From Streptomyces sp. B1I3 (GTDB lineage: Bacteria > Actinomycetota > Actinomycetes > Streptomycetales > Streptomycetaceae), in the NCBI RefSeq assembly GCF_030816615.1, contig NZ_JAUSYD010000001.1, forward strand, positions 6,346,501 to 6,410,500: a stretch of DNA of 64,000 nucleotides, written 5' to 3'. The notes under the pieces were generated by a model that was not told where the DNA came from, made no database searches, and worked only from the letters and a program-made list of their open reading frames with translations. Within the stretch, counting starts at the first letter, position 1, and each line of letters opens with the position of its first letter. The position numbers and the translations under genes were made by a program. This document shows, one piece after another, positions 4,951-19,183 of the stretch.

Positions 4951-5580
4951 GTGAGCATGAGCACGGCGGAGGAGACCGACGGCGAGAACACGCCGTGGAG
5001 TGAGGTCACGCCCGAGGCGGCCCGGCGACTGCTGGTCGCCGCCGTCGAGGCCTTCGCCGCGCGCGGCTATCACGCGACCACCACGCGGGACATCGCCGGC
5101 CGGGCCGGGATGAGCCCGGCGGCGCTCTACATCCACTACAAGACCAAGGAAGAGCTGCTCCACCGGATCAGCAGGATCGGCCACGACCGCGCCCTGCTCC
5201 TCCTGGAGACGGCCGCGTGCAGTGGCGGTACGGCGGCCGAGCGGCTCGCCGGCGCCGTGCGGTCCTTCGTCCGGTGGCACGCCGAGCGGTACACCACGGC
5301 GCGCGTGGTGCAGTACGAGCTCGAGGCCCTCGGCGAGGAGCACCGCACCGAGATCGTGGAGCTGCGCAGGAAGAGCGACGCGGTGGTGCGCCGGATCATC
5401 AGCGAGGGCGTGGCGGCGGGTGAGTTCGACGTCCCCGACGTCCCCGGCACCACGCTGGCCGTGCTGTCGCTCTGCATCGACGTGGCGCGCTGGTTCAACG
5501 CGCAGGGGAGCCGGACGCCCGACGAGGTCGGGGCGCTCTACGCCGACCTCGTGCTGCGGATGGTCGGCGCCCAGAAGTAG
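4951..5580 (+). CDS. TetR-family regulator of acyl-CoA metabolism type
   Basis: A 209-residue TetR protein. The N-terminal helix-turn-helix is clear (residues about 20-65: RRLLVAAVEAFAARGYHATT, RDIAGRAGMSPAALYIHYKTKEELL). The C-terminal half resembles the ligand domain of TetR regulators found with acyl-CoA dehydrogenase and MaoC genes. The start is GTG 4951 (ATG 4957 two codons later is equally possible), preceded by GAGGGAGAGG. The same 16-base palindromic motif is found 40 bases upstream and again before the convergent MaoC gene at 6184, so it probably represses itself and MaoC. An acyl-CoA thioester ligand is inference from context. Confidence 0.87.
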   Translation: MSMSTAEETDGENTPWSEVTPEAARRLLVAAVEAFAARGYHATTTRDIAGRAGMSPAALYIHYKTKEELLHRISRIGHDRALLLLETAACSGGTAAERLAGAVRSFVRWHAERYTTARVVQYELEALGEEHRTEIVELRRKSDAVVRRIISEGVAAGEFDVPDVPGTTLAVLSLCIDVARWFNAQGSRTPDEVGALYADLVLRMVGAQK

Positions 5581-5722
5581 GCCCGGCCGGACGGCGCCCC
5601 TCGGTAGGCCCGGCCGGAGGGCGCCCCGAAGGGGGCCGGGCGCGTGCCGCGCTCCCGGCTGCGCCGGGGCGCCCCGGGGGCCGTGCCGTCCCGCAGGCGC
5701 CCCGGGGGTGTCCGGCAGCGGT
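5579..5722. repeat. Short GC-rich tandem repeat between convergent genes
   Basis: Two near-identical 25-27-base units (taggcccggccgga[c/g]ggcgcccc) start at about 5579 and 5605, followed by further ggccgggc and gccccggg runs. The segment is between the convergent TetR and MaoC stops, so a transcription-termination role is plausible. No gene is seen. Confidence 0.5.
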
Positions 5723-6184
5723 TCAGAAGTAGTAGCGCGACACCGACTCGGCGACACAGGCGGGCTTGTCGCCGCCCTCGCGCTCGACCGTGACGAGCGC
5801 GGTCACCTGCACGCCGCCGCCGGTCTCCTCGACGTCCTTGAGCACCGCCGTGGCCCGCACCCGGGAACCCACCGGGACGGTCGAGGGGAAGCGCACCTTG
5901 TTGGTCCCGTAGTTGATGCCCATCTTCGCGCCCTCCACCTGAAGGATCTGCGGGACGAGCACGGGAAGCAGCGAGAGTGTCAGATAGCCGTGCGCGATCG
6001 TCGTGCCGAAGGGACCGGCCGCGGCGCGCTCCGGGTCCACGTGGATCCACTGGTGGTCGCCCGTGGCCTCGGCGAACAGGTCGATCCTCTTCTGCTCGAT
6101 CTCCAGCCAATCGCTGTGACCGAGCTCCTGGCCCACCCCGTCCCGGAGCTCCTGCGCGGAGGTGAATATCTTCGGCTCTGCCAT
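5723..6184 (-). CDS. MaoC-family (R)-enoyl-CoA hydratase
   Basis: A 153-residue hot-dog-fold hydratase. The family signature is present as ATGDHQWIHVDPE, with the catalytic Asp43 and His48. The rest follows the single-domain MaoC/NodN-like layout (FGTTIAHGYLTLSLLP; INYGTNKVRFPSTVPVGSRVR). It hydrates trans-2-enoyl-CoA in fatty-acid or related acyl-CoA turnover in the cytoplasm. It starts at ATG 6184. A 16-base operator copy lies 50 bases upstream, identical to that before the TetR gene at 4951. This strongly suggests a one-regulator, one-enzyme module. The chain-length preference cannot be read. Confidence 0.92.
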   Translation of the reverse strand: MAEPKIFTSAQELRDGVGQELGHSDWLEIEQKRIDLFAEATGDHQWIHVDPERAAAGPFGTTIAHGYLTLSLLPVLVPQILQVEGAKMGINYGTNKVRFPSTVPVGSRVRATAVLKDVEETGGGVQVTALVTVEREGGDKPACVAESVSRYYF

Positions 6185-6303: not shown

Positions 6304-7956
6304 TCAGCGCGCGACGTCCGGGCCCCAGTACGGACCGTCCGCCTCCCGCACCCGGCCGTCCTCCTCCACCACCACGAAGCGGTCGAAGGTGCGGGCGAAC
6401 CAGCGGTCGTGCGTGACCGCGAGGACCGTGCCCTCGAAGCGTTCCAGGGCGGATTCCAGGGCCTCGGCGCTGTGCAGGTCGAGGTTGTCGGTCGGCTCGT
6501 CCAGCAGGAGCAGCGTGGAGCCCTGGAGTTCCAGCAGGAGGATCTGGAACCGCGCCTGCTGGCCGCCCGACAGCTGGTCGAAGCGCTGGTCCCCGTGTGC
6601 CTGGAGCTCGTACCGGCGCAGGACCGAGACGGCTGCCCCCCGGTCCCGCCCCTCCCGGTCGCCGTCACCCCGGCCCAGTACCTCCACCAGCGTGCGGCCC
6701 GCCAGGTCGGGCCGCGCCTGGGTCTGTGCGAACCAGCCCGGCCGCACCCGCGCGCCCAGCCTGGCCACCCCGGTGTGGCCGACCGGTTCGCCGTGGCGTG
6801 CCGGATCGTGCAGATCCTGCTCGCTCCCGCCGGCCGCGAGCAGCCGCAGCAGGTGCGACTTGCCCGTACCGTTCGAACCGAGTACGGCCACCCGCTCGCC
6901 GAAGTAGACCTCCAGGTCGAACGGCTTCGTGAGCCCGGAGAGTTCGAGCGCCTCGCAGCGGACGGCCCGTACGCCGGTGCGGCTCCCGCGCAGCCTCATG
7001 CGGACGTTCTGCTCGACCGGCCGCTCCGGCGGCGGGCCGGCCTCCTCGAACCGGGCGAGCCGCGTCTGCATGGCGCGGTACTTCCCGGCCATCGAGGCGG
7101 AGGCCTTGGCCTGCTGCTGGAGCGTGCGGACCAGGTTCTTGAGCCGCTGGTGCTCCTCGTCCCAGCGCCGGTGCAGCTCGTCCAGACGTTCGAGACGGGA
7201 CTGCCTCGCGGTGTAGTAGTCCCGGAATCCGCCGCCGTGCACCCAGACGCCGTTCGCCTCCAGGGTGAGGACGCGGGTGGCGGTGGCCGCCAGCAGTTCG
7301 CGGTCGTGGCTGATGTAGAGCACGGTCTTGCGGGACGCGGCCATCATCTCCTCGAGGTGGCGCTTGCCCGGTACGTCGAGGTAGTTGTCCGGCTCGTCCA
7401 GCAGCAGCACCTGGGCGTTGCCGCGGAACAGCGCCTCGAGCGCGAGACGCTTCTGCTCGCCGCCGGACAGGGTCCGCAACTCCCTGGACCTGGCCCGTTC
7501 GAAAGGGAGCCGCAGCGCCGCCCCGGTGACCAGGTCCCATTCCACCTCGGCGTCGTAACCACCGGTCTCCGCCCATTGCGAGAGCGCTTCCGCATAGCGC
7601 ATCTGCACGGCTTCGCTCTCGCTCTCCAGCATGGCCAATTCTGCGCTCTCCATGGCCGAAAATGCCTGTTTCAATTCCGGCCTGGACAGTGAGACGAGAA
7701 ATTCGAGCACGGTGGTCGCGTCGCGCACGGAGCCGACGAACTGGGGCATGACCCCGAGCCCGCCCACCGTGCGCACCGTCCCGGAATGAGCCTTCAACTC
7801 GCCTGTGATCAGGCGGAACAGCGTGGTCTTCCCCATTCCGTTGGCTCCGATGAGAGCGACCTTGTCGCCGTCACCGACACGGAAGGAAGTGTCATGAAAA
7901 AGCATCCGGCCATCCGCCAGCCAGTACTCCAGACCGGAAACTTCCAAGAACCCCAC
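6304..7956 (-). CDS. ABC-F ATPase, probable ribosome-protection (self-resistance) protein
   Basis: A 550-residue soluble protein with two ABC ATPase domains and no membrane segment, as in ABC-F proteins that act on the ribosome. Domain 1 has Walker A GANGMGKTT, signature LSGGEQKR and Walker B LLLDEPDNYLD. Domain 2 has GSNGTGKSH, LSGGQQAR and LLLDEPTDNLD. Between them is the charged two-helix linker (about 240-320: RLERLDELHRRWDEEHQRLKN and on) that reaches toward the peptidyl-transferase or exit-tunnel region in resistance ABC-Fs. It starts at GTG 7956 with GAGGGG upstream. It is divergent from a RiPP-like cluster, so it may protect the producer from the cluster's product. A housekeeping role is possible but less suggested by the location. 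Confidence 0.88.
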   Translation of the reverse strand: MGFLEVSGLEYWLADGRMLFHDTSFRVGDGDKVALIGANGMGKTTLFRLITGELKAHSGTVRTVGGLGVMPQFVGSVRDATTVLEFLVSLSRPELKQAFSAMESAELAMLESESEAVQMRYAEALSQWAETGGYDAEVEWDLVTGAALRLPFERARSRELRTLSGGEQKRLALEALFRGNAQVLLLDEPDNYLDVPGKRHLEEMMAASRKTVLYISHDRELLAATATRVLTLEANGVWVHGGGFRDYYTARQSRLERLDELHRRWDEEHQRLKNLVRTLQQQAKASASMAGKYRAMQTRLARFEEAGPPPERPVEQNVRMRLRGSRTGVRAVRCEALELSGLTKPFDLEVYFGERVAVLGSNGTGKSHLLRLLAAGGSEQDLHDPARHGEPVGHTGVARLGARVRPGWFAQTQARPDLAGRTLVEVLGRGDGDREGRDRGAAVSVLRRYELQAHGDQRFDQLSGGQQARFQILLLELQGSTLLLLDEPTDNLDLHSAEALESALERFEGTVLAVTHDRWFARTFDRFVVVEEDGRVREADGPYWGPDVAR

Positions 7957-8158
7957 GGCTTTTCACCCCTCGATCGCGTTTAACGTCCCTCCGGACTCTT
8001 CAATCTCTCATGCCTTCTTGTTTTGTTTCCGGGCCTTGTGCAAGCATCCCGTCATCCGGTCACCGGACATCACGCTCGGTGACCGGGGGTCCAGGGCGCA
8101 CCCAAGGGGTGAGAGCTCCGTCCCGGTGTGCCCGTCCACTCACACGAGGGGAACCACC
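7957..8158. promoter_or_regulatory. Divergent promoter region, ABC-F / RiPP precursor
   Basis: This 202-base divergent gap is clearly less GC-rich than its surroundings (for example tcttcaatctctcatgcc and ttcttgttttgtttcc), as expected for promoters. Both flanking genes have good ribosome-binding sites inside it (GAGGGG before GTG 7956 and before ATG 8159). I could not place -10/-35 boxes with confidence. A perfect inverted repeat lies at 8056-8086. Confidence 0.55.
8056..8086. promoter_or_regulatory. Perfect 10-bp inverted repeat in the precursor leader
   Basis: CCGGTCACCG (8056-8065) and CGGTGACCGG (8077-8086) are exact reverse complements separated by 11 bases, ending 72 bases before the precursor start. 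It may be an operator for an unseen regulator or, if transcribed, a hairpin that stabilises or attenuates the precursor mRNA. It has no U-tract, so a simple terminator is less likely. Confidence 0.6.
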
Positions 8159-8311
8159 ATGGAATCCAACGCCCAGCGTCCGGTGAACGAGGAGACCCCC
8201 GAGCTGCGCCAGCAGGACGGCGACACCTCGGGTCCGGAGCTCGAGACCGACGGTCTGGTCTTCAAGCGCGAGCTGCTCAACGAGTTCCTCGGCGGACGCG
8301 TCCGCAGCTGA
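8159..8311 (+). CDS. Putative RiPP precursor peptide, 50 residues
   Basis: A short gene starting at ATG 8159 with ACGAGGGGAA ideally placed upstream. It encodes 50 residues: an acidic, Gln/Glu/Pro-rich first 32, then an amphipathic helix-like stretch (F35-K-R-E-L-L-N-E-F-L44), then G45-G46 and R-V-R-S. The hydrophobic residues at -12 (Phe35), -7 (Leu40) and -4 (Phe43) before the double Gly match the spacing of double-glycine leader peptides. The implied core is only four residues. There is no Cys, Tyr, Trp or His, which excludes lanthionine, thiazole and biaryl chemistry. It is followed by modification genes, all on the same strand. The precursor role is inferred from size, leader motif and context; no homologue was recognised. 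Confidence 0.72.
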   Translation: MESNAQRPVNEETPELRQQDGDTSGPELETDGLVFKRELLNEFLGGRVRS

Positions 8312-8414
8312 CCGAAGCGCCACCGGGCTCCGGCAGACGCAGGGCCGGGGCCCGGTGGTGTGCGACATCGGGCCGACGAGGCGGAACGAAGGTGCCGACA
8401 CGGAGCGGGGGGCG

Positions 8415-9956
8415 GTGGTCGACGTGCGGACGGACGAGACCGGCGAGGGGAAGCGCGGCCCCCGCCCGTTCACCGTGGACATCGACGCCTGGCCGCTCAG
8501 TCTGGACCCGTACCACGTCGTGGACTTCAACCAGGCGCTCGTCCTCGACGCGCTCGTCGACCCACTCACCCGCGAGGACCCGCTCGACCCGGGGGTCGCG
8601 CTGCCCTCGGCCCTGAGCTCGCTCGACCCCCTGGACGACGGACGGACCTGGCTGCTGCGCCCGGCGCCCGGTCAGATCTGGGACGACGGCACACCCGTCC
8701 GCCCCCAGGAGATCGCGGCCGGGATCCACCGGGCCTGGGGCCCCACCGGGCTCGTGCTGCCCGACGGGTACGCCACCCACGACAGCGGTCCGGGCGGCGG
8801 CGCCCGGTCGCCGGTCACCGCACGCGTCGTCGCCGGCGACGGCGGAGCCGTCACCGGGCGCACGGTGATCGAGGTGCGGTCCTCCCTGGCGCTGCCCTAC
8901 CTCGCCGGGCTCCTGGCGTTCCCGGGCGCGGCCCCCGTGCGGGAGGAGGGACACGGCTGGACGGCCAGCGGGCCCTACCGCCCGGTGAGCGCCGACCGCC
9001 GGCTGGGCAGGATCGAGCTGCGCCGCAAACCGTCCCGCAGGACCGGCCCCGGGACACCCGCAACCGTCGTCTTCCAGGTGCACCGCGAACGCGCGCGGGC
9101 ACTCGCCGCGTTCGACGAAGGACTGCTCGACCTCTCGCTCAACACCGGTCTGCCGCCGGCGGACTTCGGCCGGCTCGCAGCCCTGCCGCACGCGACGGTA
9201 CGCACCCTGTCCATGGCCTGTCAGCTGTGGGTGCGCCCCGGCACCGACTCCGTCCTGGACACCGCTGCCGGACGGCGCGCGTTCGGCGACGGCTTCGACC
9301 GGGAGGCGGTCTCCGCCCGGCTGCAGCGGGCCGTGGTGCCGTTGCACCGGTACAGCGGGCTGTGGGACACGCACCGGCCGGCCCCTGGGATGCCCGACAT
9401 CGCGACGCCGCCGCCCCGCCGGCTTCCGCCGTCCGGCCGCCGCGCGGAACTGACCCTCACCTACGCGGACTTCCCGCCCAACGACCGGGTCGTCGCGGCC
9501 CTCGCCGCCGACATCGAAGCCCGCCTCGGCCATCGTGTCCATCCGCGCCCCCTGACCTACCGCGCGTTCGCGAAGGCCGTCACAGCCCTCGACTACGAAC
9601 TGCTGTACTGCATCAATCCGGCGCCCCTGGCGCACGTGGCCGGCTACCTCACCCAGTTCCACAGCGCCGCGGCCACCGGCAGAGCGCTCGGGCTGCGTGA
9701 CGCGGAAGTGGACGCGGCCCTCGACCGCGCCCTGCGCACGCCGGGGGCCGAGGCCTCCGCCCGGGCCTGGCAGCAGGCCGAGGCGGCCGTCCTGAGCCGG
9801 GCCCCCGTGGTGCCGCTCTTCCAGGTCAACAGCGTCACCCTGCACCGGCCCGGCTCCCCGCCACCCGCGGTGGCCGCCACCGGAGCCATCGACCTGGACC
9901 GTGCCGCCGGCCCCGCCGCGCCCCACACCCACGACCGGAAGGTCCTCTCCGCATGA
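8415..9956 (+). CDS. Family-5 solute-binding-fold protein, no signal peptide, in RiPP cluster
   Basis: About 513 residues with the SBP_bac_5 (peptide/nickel-binding) fold. Supporting segments are the N-terminal SLDPYHVVDFNQALVLDALVDPLTRED, the characteristic WLLRPAPGQIWDDGTPVRPQEIAAGIHRAW, a central ASGPYRPV segment, and a C-terminal lobe. No Sec or Tat signal and no lipobox Cys are seen, so it is probably cytoplasmic, unlike transport partners, and no ABC permease gene is nearby. GTG 8415 is preferred (GGAG nine bases upstream); GTG 8355 is an alternative. It overlaps the next gene by ATGA. It may bind the peptide intermediate or precursor, which is inference. It could instead be a periplasmic binder with a missed export signal, but the N-terminus does not look so. 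Confidence 0.72.
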   Translation: MVDVRTDETGEGKRGPRPFTVDIDAWPLSLDPYHVVDFNQALVLDALVDPLTREDPLDPGVALPSALSSLDPLDDGRTWLLRPAPGQIWDDGTPVRPQEIAAGIHRAWGPTGLVLPDGYATHDSGPGGGARSPVTARVVAGDGGAVTGRTVIEVRSSLALPYLAGLLAFPGAAPVREEGHGWTASGPYRPVSADRRLGRIELRRKPSRRTGPGTPATVVFQVHRERARALAAFDEGLLDLSLNTGLPPADFGRLAALPHATVRTLSMACQLWVRPGTDSVLDTAAGRRAFGDGFDREAVSARLQRAVVPLHRYSGLWDTHRPAPGMPDIATPPPRRLPPSGRRAELTLTYADFPPNDRVVAALAADIEARLGHRVHPRPLTYRAFAKAVTALDYELLYCINPAPLAHVAGYLTQFHSAAATGRALGLRDAEVDAALDRALRTPGAEASARAWQQAEAAVLSRAPVVPLFQVNSVTLHRPGSPPPAVAATGAIDLDRAAGPAAPHTHDRKVLSA

Positions 9957-10708
9957 CGAACACGACCACGGGCAGGGCCCATGCCTACCGGGCGGCGGAC
10001 CGGACCCCGCCGGAACTGGCCGCCCTCGGCGCCCTCCTGCGCCGCGACCCCGCCCGCCCGGTCCACCTCGACGGATTCCTGCCCGCCGAGCGGGCGGACC
10101 GCCTGGGCGATGCGGTCCGCGCGCTCCCCCGATGGGCGTCGTCGGCCGTGGTGTGGACCGAGGACCGGAGCTCCACCGTCAAGGTCACCCCGCAGGAGTG
10201 GCGGGCCGCGGAACCCGGCCGGCGGGCCGCGATCCGTGACGTCGCCCAGGACATCCCCGCCCTGTTCGACGGGGACTTCACCTACCCGGCCGCGTACCGG
10301 GAGGAGCTCTCCGACTTCTTCGTCTTCGCCGGCATGGGGCCCGTCCTGCGCACCCGGCTCGCCCGGTGGGTGGCACCGGACGGCCCGATCACCACCAACG
10401 TCGAATTCGCCCGCTACGGCCGGGACGACCAGCTCGGCGAGCACTCCGACGCGGAGTCCGACACCCTCTTCGTCCTCAACCTCTACCTCGATCCCGGATT
10501 CCGGGAGGCGGACGGCGGCGTACTCGGGTTCCGCAACGAGGCGGGGGAGGAGTTCCGCATGCCGCCCCGCTTCAACAGCGTCTCCGTGGTGCCGATCCGG
10601 CCGGGATGCGTGCACTGGGTCGAACGGTGGCGGACCGGACGCATCGGCCGGCACACCGTCAGCATCGCCGTGACCCCGGCCCCCACGACGAACGCCGAGG
10701 TGAAGTGA
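9953..10708 (+). CDS. 2OG-Fe(II) oxygenase (prolyl-4-hydroxylase-like fold), first of two
   Basis: A 251-residue protein with a double-stranded beta-helix dioxygenase core. The facial triad is visible as His164-x-Asp166 (EHSDAESDTLFVLNLYLD) and His221 (PGCVHWVERW), with Arg233 or a nearby Arg as the 2-oxoglutarate anchor (GRIGRHTVSIAV). Before the distal His is the segment RFNSVSVVPIRPGCVHWV, shared with the second oxygenase at 12749, so the two are paralogues with limited identity. It probably hydroxylates, or otherwise oxidises, a residue of the precursor peptide. It overlaps the upstream gene by four bases (ATGA), and the radical SAM gene starts two bases after its stop. This implies translational coupling. 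The substrate is inferred. Confidence 0.85.
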   Translation: MTNTTTGRAHAYRAADRTPPELAALGALLRRDPARPVHLDGFLPAERADRLGDAVRALPRWASSAVVWTEDRSSTVKVTPQEWRAAEPGRRAAIRDVAQDIPALFDGDFTYPAAYREELSDFFVFAGMGPVLRTRLARWVAPDGPITTNVEFARYGRDDQLGEHSDAESDTLFVLNLYLDPGFREADGGVLGFRNEAGEEFRMPPRFNSVSVVPIRPGCVHWVERWRTGRIGRHTVSIAVTPAPTTNAEVK

Positions 10709-10710
10709 CC

Positions 10711-12702
10711 ATGGCAGTAAGTGCTGGGAACGCTCCCGGGACGAAGAGCGCGGGGACCTCCACGAGCGGCGCGGACGGTGCGCGGTCCGTGGTGCTCGCC
10801 TTCCCGCCGCTCGTCGAGTCCAGCTTCGGCCGCTACTTCCCCTCCGTCGCCGCACTCGCCGGATACCTGGACAGCCGCGGGGTCACCACGCGGCAGTGGG
10901 ACCTCAACGAGGAGTTCGCCCTGCACCTCCTCGAACCGGCCCACCTGCAGGCGGCCGGCGAGGGCAGGCTCACCGGCCTCGAGGACCACTCACCGGAGGC
11001 GATGAGCGCGGTCGCCGGGCGTTGGCTCGCCGGTCACCGCGACACGCTCTTCGACGACGAGGGCCGTCACGCCTTCGCCGCCTCGGCCGGTCCCGCCTAC
11101 CTGCTCTCCGCCCTCGCACAGCCCTACCTCATCGATCCGGAACCGCAGTGGCTCGGCGACGCCGCGCTCCTGCGGTCCGCGCCCACGCTCGTCTACCGCA
11201 CCTACTACGCCCGCCTCGGCCTGGCCTCCCGCATTCCCGCGGACGCCTGCCTCATCGGCATCTCCGTCCCCATGGGACCGCAGCTGGTTCCGGCGCTCCT
11301 GCTGGCCGAGGCCGTCAAGGAGGTCCGCCCCGACGTACGCGTCGTGCTCGGCGGGCCCACGCTGTCGCTCATGCAGGAGGAGGACCTCACCACTCTGCTC
11401 GCCACCCACCGGCAGGTGGACGCGGTCGTCAGGTTCGACGGCGAGACGCCGCTCGCCGCCCTGTGCTCCCACGCACGCGAGGGCGGCTGGCGTCCCGGCG
11501 AGGTGGCGGGAGTGTCCTCCTGGTCGGGGCAGGGCGTCACGCACGTACCGCCCGGTCCCGGCCTGCACCCCAACGTGCTGCCGCCCGCGGCGTACGACCA
11601 CGAGCTCCTCGGCAGGCTCGTCGCCCCCGAGATCGGCATCTCCCAGGCGCGCGGCTGCTACTGGGGCAAGTGCGACTACTGCGACTTCGTCGAGCTCTAC
11701 GACGGCAGCCCGCCCTACCGCGGACGCTCGGTGAAGACCTTCATGGCCGAGCTGGAGCACCAGGTCCGCTCGCACGGCGCCCGCCACTTCGAGCTGATCA
11801 CGGAGTCCATCCCGCCCGCGTTCGCCCGGCGCTTCTCCCAGGCGGTCATCGACCGAGGGCTGGACATCGTCTGGAACTCCTTCGCCATGGTCGACCGGCG
11901 CTTCGACGCCGAACTCCTGCAGCTCATGGCCAGGGCCGGGTGCGAGTACCTCGTCATCGGCATGGAGACCACCAACACCCGCGTGCTGAACCTCGTCCAC
12001 AAGTCGGCCGACCGCGAGGAGAACCTGCGCTTCATCCGCGAGGCGCACAGCGCGGGGATGAAACTGCGGATCAACCTCATTCCCGACCTGCCCTCCACCA
12101 CCCGCGAGGAAGCTCTGGAGTCGCTCCGGGACGTCGCCGAACTCGCCGATCTCGTCGACTCGTTCACCGTGTTCCCCTTCGAGGCGACCCGGTCGTCCGA
12201 AGTCGGCCGCAACCCCGAGCGCTTCGGGCTGGTGATCGCCGACTCCGGCACGGGCACCGCCAACCAGGCGCAGTACGCCCTCAACCACCTGGGCAACATC
12301 GATCCGGCGATGACCGACGAACAGCGCCGCGGTGTCCACGAGGTGTACCAGGACTTCGCCGTCCAGCACGGCTCCGGTTACATGCGGGTGACCGGCTCGG
12401 ACTTCCTCGGGCGCCTCCCTGCCCCGGACGAGCCGTTCCGCCTCGGCACCGAGTACCTGGACGTCCTGCGGCGCGGGGAGGCACTGGTCGTCACCCACGT
12501 GCTGCGCCGCGAACGCACGGTCCTGCCCGCCGCCGTCGCCACCGGACTGACCCGCTGGCTGGACGGATCACCGCTGACCCGTCAGGACCTCGCCCACTCC
12601 TACGGGGACGACGGGGCGCGACGGGTCGTCGAGCAACTGGTCGACGCCCGGATGCTGATGACGGCCGCCGGGGCCGTCGACAACGAACCCGCCGTCGTGT
12701 GA
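10711..12702 (+). CDS. B12-binding radical SAM enzyme, RiPP-maturation type
   Basis: A 663-residue protein. Residues about 25-290 form an N-terminal cobalamin-binding-like domain (VVLAFPPLVESSFGRYFPSV; VRVVLGGPTLS; DAVVRFDGETPL). The radical SAM barrel begins at GISQARGC, with cluster cysteines Cys316, Cys321 and Cys324 in a CX4CX2C spacing instead of the textbook CX3CX2C. Further conserved parts are the GMETTN and RINLIPDLP segments. The last 80 residues (THVLRRERTVLPAAVATGLTRW ...) look like a winged-helix, PqqD/RRE-like domain. B12 radical SAM enzymes of this layout usually C-methylate unactivated carbons of peptide residues, and a few form rings. A Val or Arg of the core would be a natural target; this is inference. 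It is in a coupled operon. Confidence 0.88.
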   Translation: MAVSAGNAPGTKSAGTSTSGADGARSVVLAFPPLVESSFGRYFPSVAALAGYLDSRGVTTRQWDLNEEFALHLLEPAHLQAAGEGRLTGLEDHSPEAMSAVAGRWLAGHRDTLFDDEGRHAFAASAGPAYLLSALAQPYLIDPEPQWLGDAALLRSAPTLVYRTYYARLGLASRIPADACLIGISVPMGPQLVPALLLAEAVKEVRPDVRVVLGGPTLSLMQEEDLTTLLATHRQVDAVVRFDGETPLAALCSHAREGGWRPGEVAGVSSWSGQGVTHVPPGPGLHPNVLPPAAYDHELLGRLVAPEIGISQARGCYWGKCDYCDFVELYDGSPPYRGRSVKTFMAELEHQVRSHGARHFELITESIPPAFARRFSQAVIDRGLDIVWNSFAMVDRRFDAELLQLMARAGCEYLVIGMETTNTRVLNLVHKSADREENLRFIREAHSAGMKLRINLIPDLPSTTREEALESLRDVAELADLVDSFTVFPFEATRSSEVGRNPERFGLVIADSGTGTANQAQYALNHLGNIDPAMTDEQRRGVHEVYQDFAVQHGSGYMRVTGSDFLGRLPAPDEPFRLGTEYLDVLRRGEALVVTHVLRRERTVLPAAVATGLTRWLDGSPLTRQDLAHSYGDDGARRVVEQLVDARMLMTAAGAVDNEPAVV

Positions 12703-12748
12703 CCCGTACGGAGCAGAACGACACCTCCGCCACCCACGAGGAGAATCC

Positions 12749-13498
12749 ATGCGCAGTACCACCGAGCAGCCGACGCACCCGGAGCTCGCCGCGGCAGTGC
12801 CGTTCATCGCCCCCGAGTACCTGACCGGCGACTTCTTCGCCAGGATGGGTGACTGGTACCACGGCGACGAACCCCACCCCCTGCACCTGCACAACTTCCT
12901 GCGGCCCGAGCTCGCGGCCGCGGTGTCCACGGCCGTGCGCGGCATCCCCGACTGGTCACCGCACGCAGCGCTCTACGAAGGCCGCATGGGCAAGACGGAG
13001 TTCTGGGACGAGGAGGCGGACGCCGGCCACGAGGTCACCATCAGCCAGCTCGCCGTACGGGACATTCCCGCACTGCTCGACAGCGGGGCCATGGACCCCG
13101 CCCACCAGCAGGTCATCGAGCAGTTCCTCGCCTTCGCCCTGCTGTCCGACACACTCCGCGACTGGATCAAGGCCGGCACCGGTCTGGAACTGCGCAAGCG
13201 GGCCTTCATGGAGATCGCCGCCTACCGCCGCTCCGACGGGCTCGGCGCACACCAGGACCTGGTCCCCGGCCGGGTGCTGGCGATGAACTTCTACCTCGAC
13301 GAGAACTACCGCGCCGAGCACGGCGGCCGGCTCAGCTTCCGTGACGGCGAAGGCCGTGAGCACCACATCGAGCCCGTCTACAACAGCCTCTCCATCATTC
13401 CGATCCGCGAGGACTGCTGGCACTGGGTCGAGCCCTTCAGCAGCGACACGGTCGGCCGGTACACCATCGCCATCGGGCAGCATCTGGAGGGGAGCTGA
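12749..13498 (+). CDS. 2OG-Fe(II) oxygenase, second of two
   Basis: A 249-residue paralogue of the oxygenase at 9953. The iron triad is His168-x-Asp170 (GAHQDLVPGRVLAMNFYLDENY) and His225 (REDCWHWVEPF), with Arg237 as the likely 2-oxoglutarate ligand (GRYTIAIG). It shares the EPVYNSLSIIPIRE segment with its paralogue, but the N-terminal 90 residues differ, so the two probably act at different positions of the peptide. It starts at ATG 12749 with GAGGAGAA upstream, 46 bases after the radical SAM stop. The presence of two oxygenases points to at least two oxidative steps. The substrate is unproven. Confidence 0.85.
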   Translation: MRSTTEQPTHPELAAAVPFIAPEYLTGDFFARMGDWYHGDEPHPLHLHNFLRPELAAAVSTAVRGIPDWSPHAALYEGRMGKTEFWDEEADAGHEVTISQLAVRDIPALLDSGAMDPAHQQVIEQFLAFALLSDTLRDWIKAGTGLELRKRAFMEIAAYRRSDGLGAHQDLVPGRVLAMNFYLDENYRAEHGGRLSFRDGEGREHHIEPVYNSLSIIPIREDCWHWVEPFSSDTVGRYTIAIGQHLEGS

Positions 13499-13524
13499 AC
13501 CGCACCCTGCGCCTCCTGCCCGCC

Positions 13525-14526
13525 GTGGCGGTCCATGAGACCGAGTGCGAGACGCTCCTGAACCTCGGTGACCGGCTGCTGCGCGTCGGCGGCCCCCAGC
13601 CGCGGGTCCGCGCGGCACTGGACCGGCTGCGCACGGGAACCACGCAGGACCGGCTGGCCGCGGACTGGGCCCCCGGTGCGGTCGCGGCGCTGCTCGCCGA
13701 ACTCCGCGACCAGGGCTGGCTCACCGGGGAGAGCGAAGAGGAACGTGCCGCCTTCGCCGGGGAGACGTACGAGCGCCAGGTCGACCACCTGGCACTCTTC
13801 GGCCCCGACACGGCCGCCGCGCAGCGCCGGCTGCTCGGGTCCCGGGTCGCCGTCATCGGCCTGGGAGGCATCGGCGGCATCGTCACCCAGCACCTGGTGG
13901 GAGCGGGCGTCAGCCGGTTCTGGCTCGTCGACGACGACTGCGTGGCCGGCCACAACCTCAACCGCCAGTTCACGTACGGGTCACAGGACATCGGCAGTCC
14001 CAAGACCCGGGCGCTCGCCCGCAGTCTGTCCGCCCTGCGGCCCGGCATCCGCACCACCGGCGTACGGAAGCGGATCACGGAGGCCGCCCAGCTCTTCGAC
14101 GAGCTCCCCGGCGACCTGGACCTGGTGATCGTGGCCGCGGACACCCCGCCGGGTCTCCCGGACGTCGTGTGGGAGTGGGCCGTGGCCACGGGCACCCCCA
14201 CGGCCGTCGCGGCTGTCGGTGTCGGCATCGGCTTCTGGGGCCCCGTCCTCGTGCCCGCCCGCGACGGCTGCTGGCCGTGCTTCGAGCGCGGCCGGCGAGC
14301 CGTCCTCACGGGACTGGAACGAACCGTCGAGGACCGATCCGCCGAACCTGCCCCCTTCTCCTTCGGTCCGAGCAATACAGTGATCGCCGCGATGCTCGCC
14401 CATGACGTCGTGGAGTTCCTGTGCAGCGGATCGTGCCCCACCCTGGGCCGCCGTGCCGCGCTGGACTTCCGGCGCCAACGGATCACCCACAGCGAAGAAA
14501 TGAAGTGCTCGTGTCCGACGACCTGA
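13525..14526 (+). CDS. RRE plus E1/ThiF-type adenylating enzyme, MccB-like
   Basis: At least 333 residues. The N-terminal 80 look like a winged-helix peptide-recognition (RRE) domain, as in MccB and the ThiF-like partners of azoline synthetases. Residues 107-300 form the ThiF/E1 fold: nucleotide loop GLGGIGG (112-118), acidic DDD at 136-138, N-x-x-R-type NLNRQ at 144-148, Lys160, and cysteines CWPC (249-252) with a C-terminal CSC (328-330), probably the structural zinc site. Such enzymes adenylate a peptide carboxylate or side chain. No YcaO partner exists here, favouring MccB-like chemistry. GTG 13525 is the first standard start, but family-like sequence (TLRLLPAV) continues in frame upstream, so a CTG near 13507 or 13495 may be the true start. 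Confidence 0.82.
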   Translation: MAVHETECETLLNLGDRLLRVGGPQPRVRAALDRLRTGTTQDRLAADWAPGAVAALLAELRDQGWLTGESEEERAAFAGETYERQVDHLALFGPDTAAAQRRLLGSRVAVIGLGGIGGIVTQHLVGAGVSRFWLVDDDCVAGHNLNRQFTYGSQDIGSPKTRALARSLSALRPGIRTTGVRKRITEAAQLFDELPGDLDLVIVAADTPPGLPDVVWEWAVATGTPTAVAAVGVGIGFWGPVLVPARDGCWPCFERGRRAVLTGLERTVEDRSAEPAPFSFGPSNTVIAAMLAHDVVEFLCSGSCPTLGRRAALDFRRQRITHSEEMKCSCPTT

Positions 14527-15902
14527 TAACGCAGCAGAAGCAGAAGGCGGCGGGCCGCAGGAAGGAGTCGTTCAGGGGCACCGGCTTCCTGCGCCTGTGG
14601 TCGGGCGAGACGGTGTCCGTGGCGGGCACCGAAGTCACCTTCATGGCGATCGGGATCGCCGCGGCGACCACCCTCGCCGCGACGCCCTGGCAGATGGGTG
14701 TGCTGGAGGCCGCGGAGTCCGCCGCGGTCCTGCTGCTCGGCCTGTCCGCGGGCGTGTGGGCGGACCGCTACGAGCGGCGCCGCATCATGCTCATCGCCAA
14801 CCTGGCACGCTGCGTACTGATCCTCTCCGTCCCGCTGCTGTACTGGCTGGACGCACTGACCATGCCCGTGCTGTACGCGGTCGTCTTCCTCGTCGGTGCC
14901 CTGACGCTGCTCTTCGACAGCGCGATGTCGGCCTATCTGCCACGGCTGTTGCCCCGCAGCCAACTGGAACGCGCCAACTCCTGGATGGAAGCCAGCACGT
15001 CGGTGGGCTCGGTCGCCGGACCGGGACTCGCCGGAGTGCTCATCCAGGTCATGAGCGCCCCGGTGGCCCTGGTCGTCGACTCCGTCTCCTACCTGGTCAG
15101 TTACCTCACCCTGTCGCGGCTGCCCCAGGCCCCGCCGTCCGCCGACCCGGGGACCCCGGACGCGGAGCCGCAGGAATCGCACCGGCACGCCGTCCTCAAG
15201 GGCCTGCACCTGCTGCGCGTCGACCGCATCCAGCGGCCGATGATCCTCGCCGCCGCGCACTTCAACATCTTCCACACGATGTTCTTCGCCGTGCACACGC
15301 TCTTCGTGTTGCGTGTACTCGACTTCAGCCCCGGCCTCCTCGGCGCCACCAGCATGGCGGGAGGTGTCGCAGGACTCCTCGGCGCGTCCTTCACGCCGGC
15401 GCTCACCCGTCTTTTCGGCCAGGGCCGCACCCTGATCATCGTCTACGCCGCCCCGGGCCTCTCGGCCCTCCTGGTCCCGCTGGCCCACCACACGGGCGAC
15501 CGGGGCCTCGCCATCGCCCTGGTCTCGCTGTCGACCTTCACGTGGACGTTCGCCGTGGTGGTCAATCTCGTCATCAGCGAGACGGTGAAGCAGACCCTGG
15601 TCCCCGACCACCTCCTGGGCCGGGTCACCGCCACCACACGCTTCGTCAGCTGGGGGGTCCAGCCGGTCGGCGCGCTGCTCGGCGGCTGGCTCGGCGGACG
15701 GCTGGGGCTCTCGGAGGTCATGGTCGTCTCGGCGGCCGGCCTGTTCACGTCCGCGCTCTGGCCGCTCCTCAGCCCGGTACGCAATCTGGTCGGACCGCCT
15801 GACGACGACACGGACGGCGGCGTGACGGACGGCGACGGCGGGGACGTCGACGGCGCGAGCGGCGCGACGAGCGAGCCGTCGCCGCCGCCCGAGAAGACCT
15901 GA
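14511..15902 (+). CDS. MFS transporter, probable exporter of the RiPP product
   Basis: About 463 residues with 12 predicted membrane helices. It carries the MFS loop between helices 2 and 3 (GVWADRYERRRIMLIAN) and the enterobactin-exporter-like subgroup features common in Streptomyces biosynthetic clusters (SYLPRLLPRSQLERANSWMEASTSVGSVAGPGLAG). The C-terminus is a soluble Asp/Ser-rich tail of about 40 residues. GTG 14511 is used (GTG 14505 is possible); the gene overlaps the E1 gene by 16 bases, so it is translationally coupled. It probably exports the mature peptide. The substrate is inferred from operon position only. Confidence 0.85.
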   Translation: MSDDLITQQKQKAAGRRKESFRGTGFLRLWSGETVSVAGTEVTFMAIGIAAATTLAATPWQMGVLEAAESAAVLLLGLSAGVWADRYERRRIMLIANLARCVLILSVPLLYWLDALTMPVLYAVVFLVGALTLLFDSAMSAYLPRLLPRSQLERANSWMEASTSVGSVAGPGLAGVLIQVMSAPVALVVDSVSYLVSYLTLSRLPQAPPSADPGTPDAEPQESHRHAVLKGLHLLRVDRIQRPMILAAAHFNIFHTMFFAVHTLFVLRVLDFSPGLLGATSMAGGVAGLLGASFTPALTRLFGQGRTLIIVYAAPGLSALLVPLAHHTGDRGLAIALVSLSTFTWTFAVVVNLVISETVKQTLVPDHLLGRVTATTRFVSWGVQPVGALLGGWLGGRLGLSEVMVVSAAGLFTSALWPLLSPVRNLVGPPDDDTDGGVTDGDGGDVDGASGATSEPSPPPEKT

Positions 15903-15950
15903 CGACAGCCGGCCCGGTCCGTCCGCAGAGCCTGAACACAGGAGCAGAAG

Positions 15951-17261
15951 ATGCCCGCGCTCAATCCGATCGGCCGCACCTTGTCCAACGGCCTGCGGGT
16001 GATCGTCTCCAGGGACACCACGGTCCCCGTCGCCGCGGTGTGCCTGTGGTACCGGGTGGGATCGTGTGACGAGCCCGCCGGCCGGACAGGTCTCTCCCAC
16101 CTGTTCGAACACCTGATGTTCCAGGGATCGACGCACGTCCCGGCCAACGGCCACACCGCCGCCGTGGAGGAGGCGGGCGGTCTGACCAACGCCTCCAGCG
16201 GCTTCGAACGCACCACTTTCTACACGGTCGTCCCCGCCGGCCAGCTGGAACTGGTGCTGTGGCTGGAGGCCGACCGGATGGGAGGCATGCTCGACGCCTT
16301 CACGCCCGAGGGCCTCGGCAACCAGCGGGACGTCGTGCTCAACGAGCGGCGGGAGCGGTACGACAACGTGCCCTACGGCACCGGATGGGAGCAGCTGGTC
16401 GCCATGACGTTCCCTCCCGGTCACCCCTTCCGCGAGTTGCCGGCAGGCAGCCCCCGGGACCTGGCCGCCGTCACGGAGGACGACTGCCGGGCGTTCTTCC
16501 GCCGGCACTACGCCCCCGACCGGGCGATCCTCACGGTCGTCGGCGACGTGGAACCGGACGCGGTGGTGGATCTCGCGGAACGCCACTTCCGTCACATAGC
16601 GCCCTCCGCCTCCGGCCGCTGGGCACCCCCGGCGTGCTCGCGCACCCCCGCGCTCCCGGCCGAGACCCGGCGCCACGCCGAGGCGGCGGTGCCCGGTCCG
16701 GCGTTCATGGCCGCCTACCAGCTGCCCGCCCGTGGTGGACGTGCCTACGCCGCCACGGACCTCGCTCTGACGCTGCTGGGGGGGATGAGCAGCAGCGGAC
16801 TGCACGACCGGCTCGTGCGGCGGGACCAGCTCGCCCACAGCGCCCGCTTCTCCCTGTTGCCCCTGCGGTCGGCACCCTCCCTGGGCCGGCTGGACGTGCG
16901 CGCCGTGCCCGGCACCGGCCTCGACGTCGTGGAGAAGGTGGTCGACGAGGAGATCGAGCGCCTCGTCGACCACGGGGTCGCCGACGCGTCGCTGCGGGGG
17001 GCCAAGGCCCAGATCCGGCGCGAGTGGTACGACCGCCTCGCCCATCCGGGCAGCCGGGCCGACGAACTGTGCGCCCAGGAGGCTCACTTCGGCGACGCGG
17101 CGCTGGCCGACGCCCATCTCGGTGAGGCCTTGGACATCTCCGCGGCCGAGGTGCGGCAGGCCGCGGCCGACTGGCTCGCCCCCGAACGGCGCTCGGTCCT
17201 GACCTATGAACCCGCGGGTGCCACGGACCCGGCCCGAGCCGCGCGAGGAGCCGCCGCATGA
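15951..17261 (+). CDS. M16B zinc peptidase, catalytic subunit
   Basis: A 436-residue protein of the half-size (M16B) insulinase family. The inverted zinc motif HXXEH is at His50-Leu-Phe-Glu53-His54 (GLSHLFEHLMFQG), and the third zinc ligand is a Glu near 133-136 (VVLNERRE). No signal peptide. It begins at ATG 15951 with AGGAGCAGAAG upstream and overlaps the second M16 gene by ATGA. M16B enzymes work as two-subunit chambers, with one subunit supplying zinc and the other an Arg/Tyr pair; the next gene supplies that partner. It is the obvious candidate for leader removal. M16 pairs have this role in other RiPP pathways, but cleavage after Gly46 here is a guess. Confidence 0.9.
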   Translation: MPALNPIGRTLSNGLRVIVSRDTTVPVAAVCLWYRVGSCDEPAGRTGLSHLFEHLMFQGSTHVPANGHTAAVEEAGGLTNASSGFERTTFYTVVPAGQLELVLWLEADRMGGMLDAFTPEGLGNQRDVVLNERRERYDNVPYGTGWEQLVAMTFPPGHPFRELPAGSPRDLAAVTEDDCRAFFRRHYAPDRAILTVVGDVEPDAVVDLAERHFRHIAPSASGRWAPPACSRTPALPAETRRHAEAAVPGPAFMAAYQLPARGGRAYAATDLALTLLGGMSSSGLHDRLVRRDQLAHSARFSLLPLRSAPSLGRLDVRAVPGTGLDVVEKVVDEEIERLVDHGVADASLRGAKAQIRREWYDRLAHPGSRADELCAQEAHFGDAALADAHLGEALDISAAEVRQAAADWLAPERRSVLTYEPAGATDPARAARGAAA

Positions 17262-18646
17262 CCGCCCCCGCCACCACCGGCCCGCGCCCCGCCCGTCCTG
17301 CCACGGCGCCCGTCCGGCCGTGGCACTTCCCCCGGCTGCACAGGAGCGTCCTGGACAACGGCCTCACGCTGCTGACCTGCGACCGGCCGGGTCAGGAAGT
17401 GCTGAGCGCCGAGATCATCGTCGCCGTGCCGCTCGCTCTCGAACCACGCGAGCTGGAGGGCGTCGTGGGCATCACGGCCAGCGCCCTGGCCGAGGGCGTA
17501 CCGGGACTGGACTCGCTCGACTTCATCCACGCGCTGGAACACTGCGGAGCCACCCTCGGCGTCGGCGCCGAGCACACCGGCCTCCGGATCACCCTCGACG
17601 TCCCCGGTACCCATCTGGAGGAAGCGCTGGGCCTGCTCACCTCGGCTCTGCGCACCCCCCTGTTCCCCGCTCGATCCGTCGAACGCCTGGTCGGAGCACG
17701 CGCGAACGCGTACGTCCGCAACCGGGCCGACGCCGAGCGCCGCGCGTCCATGGAACTGCACACCGCCCTGTTCGACGCGGCGGACCGCCGTTCGCGGCCG
17801 GCCCGCGGCACCGACGTGACGGTCCGCGGGATCGACCGGGACGCGGTCGCCGCCTTCCACCACCGCTTCGTCCGCCCGGCCGTCTCCACCGTCGCGCTCG
17901 CGGGCGACCTGGCCAGGTACGACGTCGACGCCGTGCTGCGCCGCGTGCTGGGCACGTGGGAGGGCGAGCCGGGCACCCTTGAGGCACCCCCGTCCCCGCC
18001 GGTGCGCGACGAGGCGCCGGTGATCCTCGTCGACCGGCCAGGGGCCCTCCAGACCCGGCTGGTCCTCGGGCGGGTCGCACCGGGCCGTGCCACGCCCGAC
18101 TGGGACGCGCTGCTGATCGGCAACCACAGCCTCGGCGGCTCGGTCAACGCACGGCTCGACCGTGAACTACGCGAGGCCAAGGGCTACACGTACGGGTTCC
18201 ACAGCCGCCTGCTGGGTGTGGTCCAGGACTCCCTCGCCGTCGTGACGGGGGCGGTGGAGACATCGGTGACGGCGCCCGCGCTGAACGACATCACCCGCAT
18301 CCTGACCGAGGTCGCCGACCGCGGGATCACGGAGGCGGAGCGCGCGGCCGCGGTGGCGCAGATCGTGGACGCGGCGCCGCTGCGCTACCTCACCGCGTCG
18401 GCGGTCGCGGAGGAGATGGCCCTGCTGGTCCTCGACGGCCGGGACCCCGCGAGCCTGCCGGACGCCTTCCGGCGCGCGGCGGCGATCACCACCGAGGAGG
18501 CCTCCGGCGCCCTGCGTTCAGCCTTCCCTCCGGACGGCATGGTGACGGTCGCGATCGGCGACGTCTCGGTGTTCGGTGAGGAACTCCGGGGGAACGCCAC
18601 GGCTCCGGTGCACCTCCTGCGAACGGGGTCCTCACGGCTCCCGTAG
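17258..18646 (+). CDS. M16B peptidase-like subunit without zinc motif
   Basis: A 462-residue M16-fold protein lacking HXXEH: the equivalent region reads LEPRELEGVVGITASALAEG. It keeps the C-terminal substrate-binding Arg/Tyr region (LDRELREAKGYTYGFHSRL), as expected for the non-catalytic partner of a heterodimeric M16B protease. An N-terminal 25-residue Pro/Ala-rich extension precedes the fold. It is coupled to the catalytic subunit by an ATGA overlap, so equal amounts are made. It is the last clear gene of the RiPP-like operon; after 63 bases comes soxR, probably an independent unit. Confidence 0.88.
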   Translation: MTAPATTGPRPARPATAPVRPWHFPRLHRSVLDNGLTLLTCDRPGQEVLSAEIIVAVPLALEPRELEGVVGITASALAEGVPGLDSLDFIHALEHCGATLGVGAEHTGLRITLDVPGTHLEEALGLLTSALRTPLFPARSVERLVGARANAYVRNRADAERRASMELHTALFDAADRRSRPARGTDVTVRGIDRDAVAAFHHRFVRPAVSTVALAGDLARYDVDAVLRRVLGTWEGEPGTLEAPPSPPVRDEAPVILVDRPGALQTRLVLGRVAPGRATPDWDALLIGNHSLGGSVNARLDRELREAKGYTYGFHSRLLGVVQDSLAVVTGAVETSVTAPALNDITRILTEVADRGITEAERAAAVAQIVDAAPLRYLTASAVAEEMALLVLDGRDPASLPDAFRRAAAITTEEASGALRSAFPPDGMVTVAIGDVSVFGEELRGNATAPVHLLRTGSSRLP

Positions 18647-18709
18647 GTCCCCAGGGCGACATGGCGGAGCCCGCTCCATGGGAGGGGCGAGGTCGTTAGG
18701 GTGGGAGGG

Positions 18710-19183
18710 GTGCCCCAGATCCCGCAGACACTCCACGAACTCACCGTCGGCCAGCTCTCCGCGCGCAGCGGCGCGGCGGTGTCGGCCCTGCACTTCTACG
18801 AGTCCAAGGGCCTGATCACGAGCCGCCGCACCAGCGGCAATCAGCGCCGCTACACCAGGGACGCCCTGCGCCGGGTCGCGTTCGTGCGCGCGGCCCAGCG
18901 GGTGGGTATCCCGCTGGCGACGATCCGGGACGCGCTCGCCGAGCTGCCCGAGGAGCGCACACCGAACCGCGACGACTGGGCACGGCTCTCCCGGGCGTGG
19001 CGCGCGGAGCTTGACGAACGGATCAAGCAACTGGGGCGGCTGCGGGACCATCTCACCGACTGCATCGGCTGCGGCTGCCTGTCGCTGGAGACGTGCGTGC
19101 TGTCCAACCCCGACGACATCACCGGTACACGCATGGCGGGGTCGCGTCTGATGCCCGAGCTGATGGCGCCGGACCGTTCCTGA
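18710..19183 (+). CDS. soxR: SoxR, redox-sensing MerR-family regulator
   Basis: A 157-residue MerR-type regulator. Residues 8-75 form the HTH ([44 protein letters not shown]). A dimerisation helix follows, then the diagnostic [2Fe-2S] motif [12 protein letters not shown]. Streptomyces SoxR responds to redox-active small molecules such as the cell's own pigments and activates a small regulon. The start is GTG 18710 ([14 protein letters not shown]), inside gggagggg; the earlier in-frame GTG at 18701 is too close to any ribosome site. It is next to the RiPP cluster but nothing in the sequence links them, and no SoxR box was recognised nearby. Confidence 0.93.

Follow-up and report, generated by a model that had tools for sequence, protein, structure and literature searches.

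What do nine closely packed genes on the forward strand of a Streptomyces sp. B1I3 contig, opening with a 50-codon open reading frame (ORF) and running on through a series of candidate peptide-modifying enzymes, make? The genes lie at 8159–18646 of the window, the 64,000-nucleotide stretch of DNA that we analyzed (contig NZ_JAUSYD010000001.1, positions 6,346,501 to 6,410,500), in a complete genome of 7.52 Mb. An original prediction, made from the sequence alone, took them for a cluster making a ribosomally synthesized and post-translationally modified peptide (RiPP) with a short core. All nine are present in contiguous order, but the divergent ABC-F gene at 6304–7956, which had been missed, belongs to the cluster, so that it comprises ten genes spanning 6304–18646. 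We put at about 0.62 the probability that these ten genes form a RiPP cluster of an undescribed subclass in which the ABC-F protein protects the ribosome. The family and its architecture are well supported, and from them we infer the chemistry, the substrates, the order of reactions and the target.

Every gene junction described in the original prediction was found again. The stop codon of the gene for a substrate-binding protein (SBP)-like product and the start of oxygenase A share an ATGA at 9953–9956; oxygenase A ends at 10708 and the radical S-adenosylmethionine (SAM) gene starts at 10711; the transporter gene, of the major facilitator superfamily (MFS), starts at 14511, overlapping by 16 bases the E1 gene that ends at 14526; and the two M16 genes are joined by an ATGA at 17258–17261. 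Pfam likewise agrees with the predicted enzyme families, assigning the nine operon proteins to SBP_bac_5, two 2-oxoglutarate (2OG)-Fe(II) oxygenases, B12-binding plus Radical_SAM, ThiF, MFS and two M16 proteins, with oxygenase A falling just under the curated cut-off. As had also been claimed, no YcaO, LanB/C/M or lasso cyclase is among the Pfam and NCBIfam matches of these nine proteins.

With the E1 as query, and with the neighborhoods of its matches fetched, versions of the cluster were found in 10 of 394 Streptomyces genomes, the window genome included. Five are close copies with the same gene order (the window, L033, L034, L035 and L036), and the one close relative with a species name is Streptomyces cahuitamycinicus; the four copies other than the window are 63–68% identical to the window in the E1 and about 58–75% across genes. 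Three further clusters are diverged and have the radical SAM gene (L037, L038 and L039), and two are without it (L040 and L041). That the same genes recur in the same order in four other Streptomyces genomes argues that the cluster is not a chance assembly. The L035 contig ends inside the first M16 gene. L034 (G010:C2) looks decayed at its 5′ end (about 5400–5900): the precursor and SBP genes are missing, as is the beginning of the first oxygenase gene, and a divergent MFS-like gene stands in their place.

The precursor gene (8159–8311, forward strand) encodes a 50-residue peptide, MESNAQRPVNEETPELRQQDGDTSGPELETDGLVFKRELLNEFLGGRVRS, that matches no family in Pfam or NCBIfam. The prediction had been staked beforehand on a short precursor-like ORF being kept upstream in homologous clusters, and such an ORF occupies the equivalent position in each of the eight further loci whose 5′ end can be read. 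The peptides are 39–53 amino acids long and 60–80% identical among the close loci, and their conserved block is the C-terminal third. Here the close precursors read ..ETDGLVFKRELLNEFLGGRVRS or near variants, and the diverged ones end in LNDLLAMKHRS, LNEQLAFVNRC, LGDVLEVVHRS, AAQVMVHRC and AATVMVHRC. All nine precursors end in [V/H/N]-Arg-[Ser/Thr/Cys] with an invariant penultimate Arg. This shared pattern is partly a selection effect, because position, a ribosome-binding site and the C-terminal pattern itself served as criteria for choosing the diverged ORFs; the four close precursors were found independently, by sequence similarity. Over the C-terminal 24 codons, the ratio of nonsynonymous to synonymous differences (pN/pS) among the close precursors is 0.05–0.37, and on codon comparison they are under purifying selection. 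A leader segment, xLxFxRExLNxxL, is also conserved. Because every precursor shares the same kind of ending, the core is probably the last four to six residues (..RVRS in the window), with a leader that probably runs to about LNEFL. The claim that the cluster opens with a 50-residue peptide carrying a short core therefore stands, the ORF being conserved and coding, although its Arg-[Ser/Thr/Cys] C-terminus had gone unnoticed. Across nine loci, then, a conserved, gene-encoded precursor lies beside modifying enzymes, with synteny and, among the close precursors, pN/pS below 0.4, the arrangement by which a RiPP is recognized.

The precursor gene faces the gene for a 550-residue ABC-F ATPase (6304–7956, reverse strand), with 202 bp between the start codons, and the intergenic region that they share (7957–8158) is predicted from the gene geometry to hold divergent promoters. 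ABC-F homologues at 60–85% identity adjoin seven other clusters, so that such a gene lies beside 8 of 10. The divergent arrangement, with about 200–440 bp between start codons, is found in the window, L033, L035, L036, L038, L040 and L041; in L037 the starts are about 2.2 kb apart, with a regulator gene in between. Transposase-like genes occupy the flank of L039 (G159:C1:1168000-1187500) where other clusters have the ABC-F.

As a control, we searched Streptomyces genomes for ABC-F matches at E ≤ 1e-100 and found them in 240 of 247, mostly near 64% identity; with a close paralogue in nearly all Streptomyces, the ABC-F was rejected as a stand-alone marker of the cluster. Only a tree set the cluster copies apart from the core copies: among 24 ABC-Fs, 8 cluster-linked and 16 core sequences are split by a 100/100 branch, in an unrooted tree for which the core sequences closest to the window copy were chosen. 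Both kinds are present in the window genome. A core-type example lies at G000:C1:3296167-3297759, and the widespread core ABC-F may correspond to the ARE5 group described in PMC12421871. A crude scan for a conserved ORF upstream of the cluster ABC-F gene found none. Clusters of the lincomycin type, whose products target the ribosome, carry a dedicated extra ABC-F such as LmrC (PMC12421871). Because the cluster ABC-F adjoins most of the clusters and differs from the core Streptomyces copy, it suggests a self-resistance protein acting by ribosome protection and, by analogy, a product that likely targets the ribosome.

Between the precursor and oxygenase A, in every intact member of the family whether or not it has the radical SAM gene, sits the gene for an OppA-fold protein (8355–9956, forward strand; Pfam SBP_bac_5, 2.8e-8), with a true start possibly at or near 8424. 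Profile searches match it to the OppA family down to 5e-29, and its model superimposes on OppA 2z23 with an E value of 1.1e-25 and a TM score of 0.71. By inspection, the window ORF and its homologues begin where the mature domain does, or slightly ahead of it, and have no hydrophobic N-terminal stretch. The OppA fold and the lack of a visible signal peptide suggest that the protein is probably a cytosolic carrier for the precursor or product. The original prediction had placed an SBP-like gene in the operon, and the family assignment stands; the probable cytosolic location had not been recognized. In L040 and L041, which have no radical SAM gene, a class I methyltransferase gene adjoins the SBP gene. 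An OppA-fold protein, OppA2 (2wok), is also encoded within the Streptomyces cluster for clavulanic acid; that product is not a RiPP, and the OppA-fold proteins here differ in having no visible signal peptide. Dedicated peptide-binding proteins other than RiPP recognition elements (RREs) have a precedent in crocagin (PMC10070186).

Both of these genes could instead lie outside biosynthesis, the ABC-F being an ordinary regulatory or translation factor, the SBP-like protein sensing or importing peptides, and the RiPP not touching the ribosome. The near ubiquity of related ABC-Fs in Streptomyces leaves room for this, as do the service of ABC-Fs in antibiotic-responsive regulation (PMC12421871) and an ABC-F subfamily that is not clear-cut from scores and solved relatives. 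We nevertheless consider it unlikely, since it would leave a distinct ABC-F clade, mostly divergent from the precursor, beside most clusters as a bystander; the SBP gene is held between precursor and oxygenase with translational overlap; and a protein without a signal peptide is at odds with import.

We also considered whether the E1 (13525–14526, forward strand; ThiF, 3.3e-35 in Pfam) would lead to a known product type. Its best profile match is MccB of microcin C (5e-45 vs 3.5e-23 for PaaA), and MccB (E 8.9e-21) and PaaA are also the best fold matches of its model. The nucleotide-binding and catalytic residues GxGGxG, D136, R147-Q148, K160 and D206 are invariant and align with their MccB counterparts, which gives the protein, on alignment, a complete adenylation site. 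In the model, residues from about 2 to 62 form three strands and three helices, as an RRE does, with a predicted local confidence (pLDDT) of 60–71, and this N-terminus is a probable RRE. Only Ser, Thr or Cys occupies the last precursor position, which suggests a part for the terminal side-chain hydroxyl or thiol in the E1 step. The E1s of L040 and L041 are without Cys residues present in the other E1s.

By this route the product could be a peptide-nucleotide Trojan horse like microcin C (mccA-F), in which the E1 attaches a nucleotide to the C-terminus and the compound, imported by peptide transporters, blocks an aminoacyl-tRNA synthetase and not the ribosome. The two systems share more than an MccB-type E1 with an N-terminal peptide-binding domain, a probable one here, and a complete adenylation site, for both have an MFS exporter and a very short core, cationic here. 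The cluster precursors, however, are 39–53 residues long with a longer leader, compared with the microcin heptapeptide, and none has a C-terminal Asn; all nine end in Ser, Thr or Cys, and on that ground microcin C was rejected as a home for the cluster. Neither MccE nor MccF immunity genes are found among the nine operon proteins by Pfam or NCBIfam, and the linked candidate resistance gene is an ABC-F in their place, not a synthetase copy or a hydrolase. The cluster also adds the B12 radical SAM enzyme, two 2OG oxygenases, the M16 pair and the OppA-fold protein. We regard the Trojan horse as rather improbable.

Pantocin-like chemistry, in which the E1 and a 2OG oxygenase would form a fused ring from Glu residues inside the precursor, is very improbable: pantocin A (paaP, paaA, paaB, paaC; PMC12250964) has the same pairing of E1-like enzyme and 2OG-Fe(II) oxygenase and a short precursor, PaaA is among the E1 matches, and residues 11–12 of the window precursor are Glu-Glu, but this Glu pair is not kept across the family, the PaaA score is far below that of MccB, the conserved block and core lie at the C-terminus, the cluster adds radical SAM, M16 and ABC-F genes and has an MFS in place of the EamA exporter, and the precursor alignment contains no conserved internal Glu-Glu-Asn (EEN), for which reason pantocin A was rejected as a home.

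The remaining enzymes are consistent with further modification, leader removal and export. The B12-dependent radical SAM protein (10711–12702, forward strand; PF02310, PF04055) has an invariant CYWGKCDYC motif (CX4CX2C) and is a probable C-methyltransferase, judging from its domains and from its best NCBIfam match, the RiPP radical SAM C-methyltransferase family TIGR03975, which it hits below the cut-off (90 bits vs 281.85). Oxygenase A (9953–10708, forward strand; PF13640 2.8e-5, 25.4 bits vs a cut-off of 27) and its paralogue, oxygenase B (12749–13498, forward strand; PF13640 2.7e-8, PF13661 6.7e-8), both keep the HxD...H...R residues, invariant over 13 sequences, and among solved structures their nearest relatives are OGFOD1/Tpa1/P4H-type peptidyl prolyl hydroxylases. 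Both oxygenases occur together only with RVRS/T cores, a suggestive association in very few independent cases. The first M16 protein (15951–17261, forward strand; PF00675, PF05193) is the catalytic subunit, with an HLFEH motif conserved among homologues and the 3amj active subunit as nearest solved structure. Its partner (17258–18646, forward strand; only PF05193, the C-terminal M16 domain) has no HxxEH at the catalytic position; a HALEH elsewhere was rejected as an active site, being neither conserved nor at that position. The active/inactive pair resembles the solved 3amj heterodimer and fits leader removal. The MFS transporter (14511–15902, forward strand; MFS_1 7.8e-32), which has homologues in the nine other loci, is the proposed exporter.

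Together, these features suggest a pathway for the undescribed RiPP. The RRE of the MccB-like E1 would hold the xLxFxRExLNxxL leader, and in the cytosol the OppA-fold protein may bind either the precursor or only its short C-terminal core. Residues of the ..RVRS core would be C-methylated by the B12 radical SAM enzyme and hydroxylated or desaturated by the two 2OG oxygenases. With ATP, the E1 would activate the C-terminal carboxylate of the terminal Ser, Thr or Cys, leading either to a nucleotide adduct or to a ring with the side-chain hydroxyl or thiol. The M16 pair would then cut off the leader, the MFS protein would export the product, and the ABC-F would protect the producer's ribosome. 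On the best reading the product would be a tiny, heavily modified peptide antibiotic, C-terminally activated, methylated and hydroxylated, that is aimed at the ribosome, its chemistry and target being the parts that we infer. A more specific proposal is tentative: the cluster would represent a RiPP class that depends on a cytosolic OppA-fold protein, descended from transporter binding proteins, as obligate carrier of the precursor or core, and whose MccB-like E1 acts on a C-terminal Arg-Ser/Thr/Cys to yield a tri- to hexapeptide ribosome inhibitor that the ABC-F can dislodge.

Several observations weigh against a RiPP cluster with a ribosome-protecting ABC-F. The ABC-F scores 268.7 bits against NCBIfam ribo_prot_ABC_F, below the cut-off of 380, and its nearest solved relatives are mixed, including the non-resistance proteins YbiT and EttA; the decayed G010 copy and G159 (L039) have no ABC-F beside the cluster. 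Other parts are not universal either, with no 2OG gene detected in L038 and no M16 gene in L037–L039. The model of the E1 N-terminus is of moderate confidence only, and no product of the cluster is known.

Among known RiPP systems, crocagin (cgnA-E, L) likewise starts from a small gene-encoded precursor whose very short core lies at the C-terminus, and it has a dioxygenase and peptide-binding proteins dedicated to guiding the modification (PMC10070186), but its CgnB and CgnE derive from M29 aminopeptidases rather than OppA, its core is different, and it is without an E1 or B12 radical SAM enzyme. PttP1/PttP2 and other M16 leader proteases likewise work as two subunits to remove leaders (PMC10885120), although those act on class III lanthipeptides. 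No description of the present gene set was found in NCBIfam or in the literature (open-licence papers only), in agreement with the prediction that it matched no named RiPP family. The predicted RiPP nature of the cluster and its short core are likewise supported by the conserved coding precursor, the RRE-like E1 N-terminus and the active/inactive M16 pair. We conclude that the cluster is probably a new variant within RiPPs, whose gene combination matches no RiPP family that we found.

Outside the genus search, members were few. A radical SAM alignment scan of contigs returned mostly unrelated B12 radical SAM genes, with L053 and L054 the only clear members: L053 is the same cluster as L035, and L054, a Pseudonocardiales contig, groups an E1 gene with SBP-like, 2OG and radical SAM genes. 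L055 carries a radical SAM gene at 39% identity and no detectable partner genes. A single-sequence E1 scan of genome contigs gave no confirmed relative, and radical SAM alignment searches returned only known members from the order sample and only the window genome from the class sample. The phylum sample of 397 genomes yielded, at E ≤ 1e-30, the window genome and three E1 matches whose neighborhoods were not studied; one of these, G172, is a different E1 cluster already seen in the genus search. Because the order, class and phylum samples added no member, we take the family to be rare.

Some neighboring genes vary. Directly 3′ of the cluster in the window is a SoxR regulator gene (18701–19183; NCBIfam SoxR above cut-off) that is not conserved in the L033 flank. 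L037 (15861–17303) and L039 (6404–7783) encode proteins of about 460–480 amino acids after the MFS gene, without a Pfam match, and L038 has a 712-residue ORF between E1 and MFS (12029–14167) with a weak, sub-threshold GDSL lipase match. A separate Streptomyces neighborhood, recurring in L043, L044, L046, L048 and L049, pairs two B12 radical SAM-like genes with an E1-like gene whose identity to the window E1 is 33%, and is possibly another RiPP type.

If our reading is correct, the cluster would define a new RiPP subclass with a predicted ribosomal target, so that the search for its product could be directed rather than blind. It would also make it possible to test whether the fold of transporter binding proteins has been taken into the cytosol to carry peptides during biosynthesis, and it would add an E1 acting on a C-terminal Ser, Thr or Cys, a substrate outside the ThiF-like RiPP enzymes described in a review (PMC12250964). 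The ten genomes offer natural variants of core and enzymes with which genes may be correlated with modifications.

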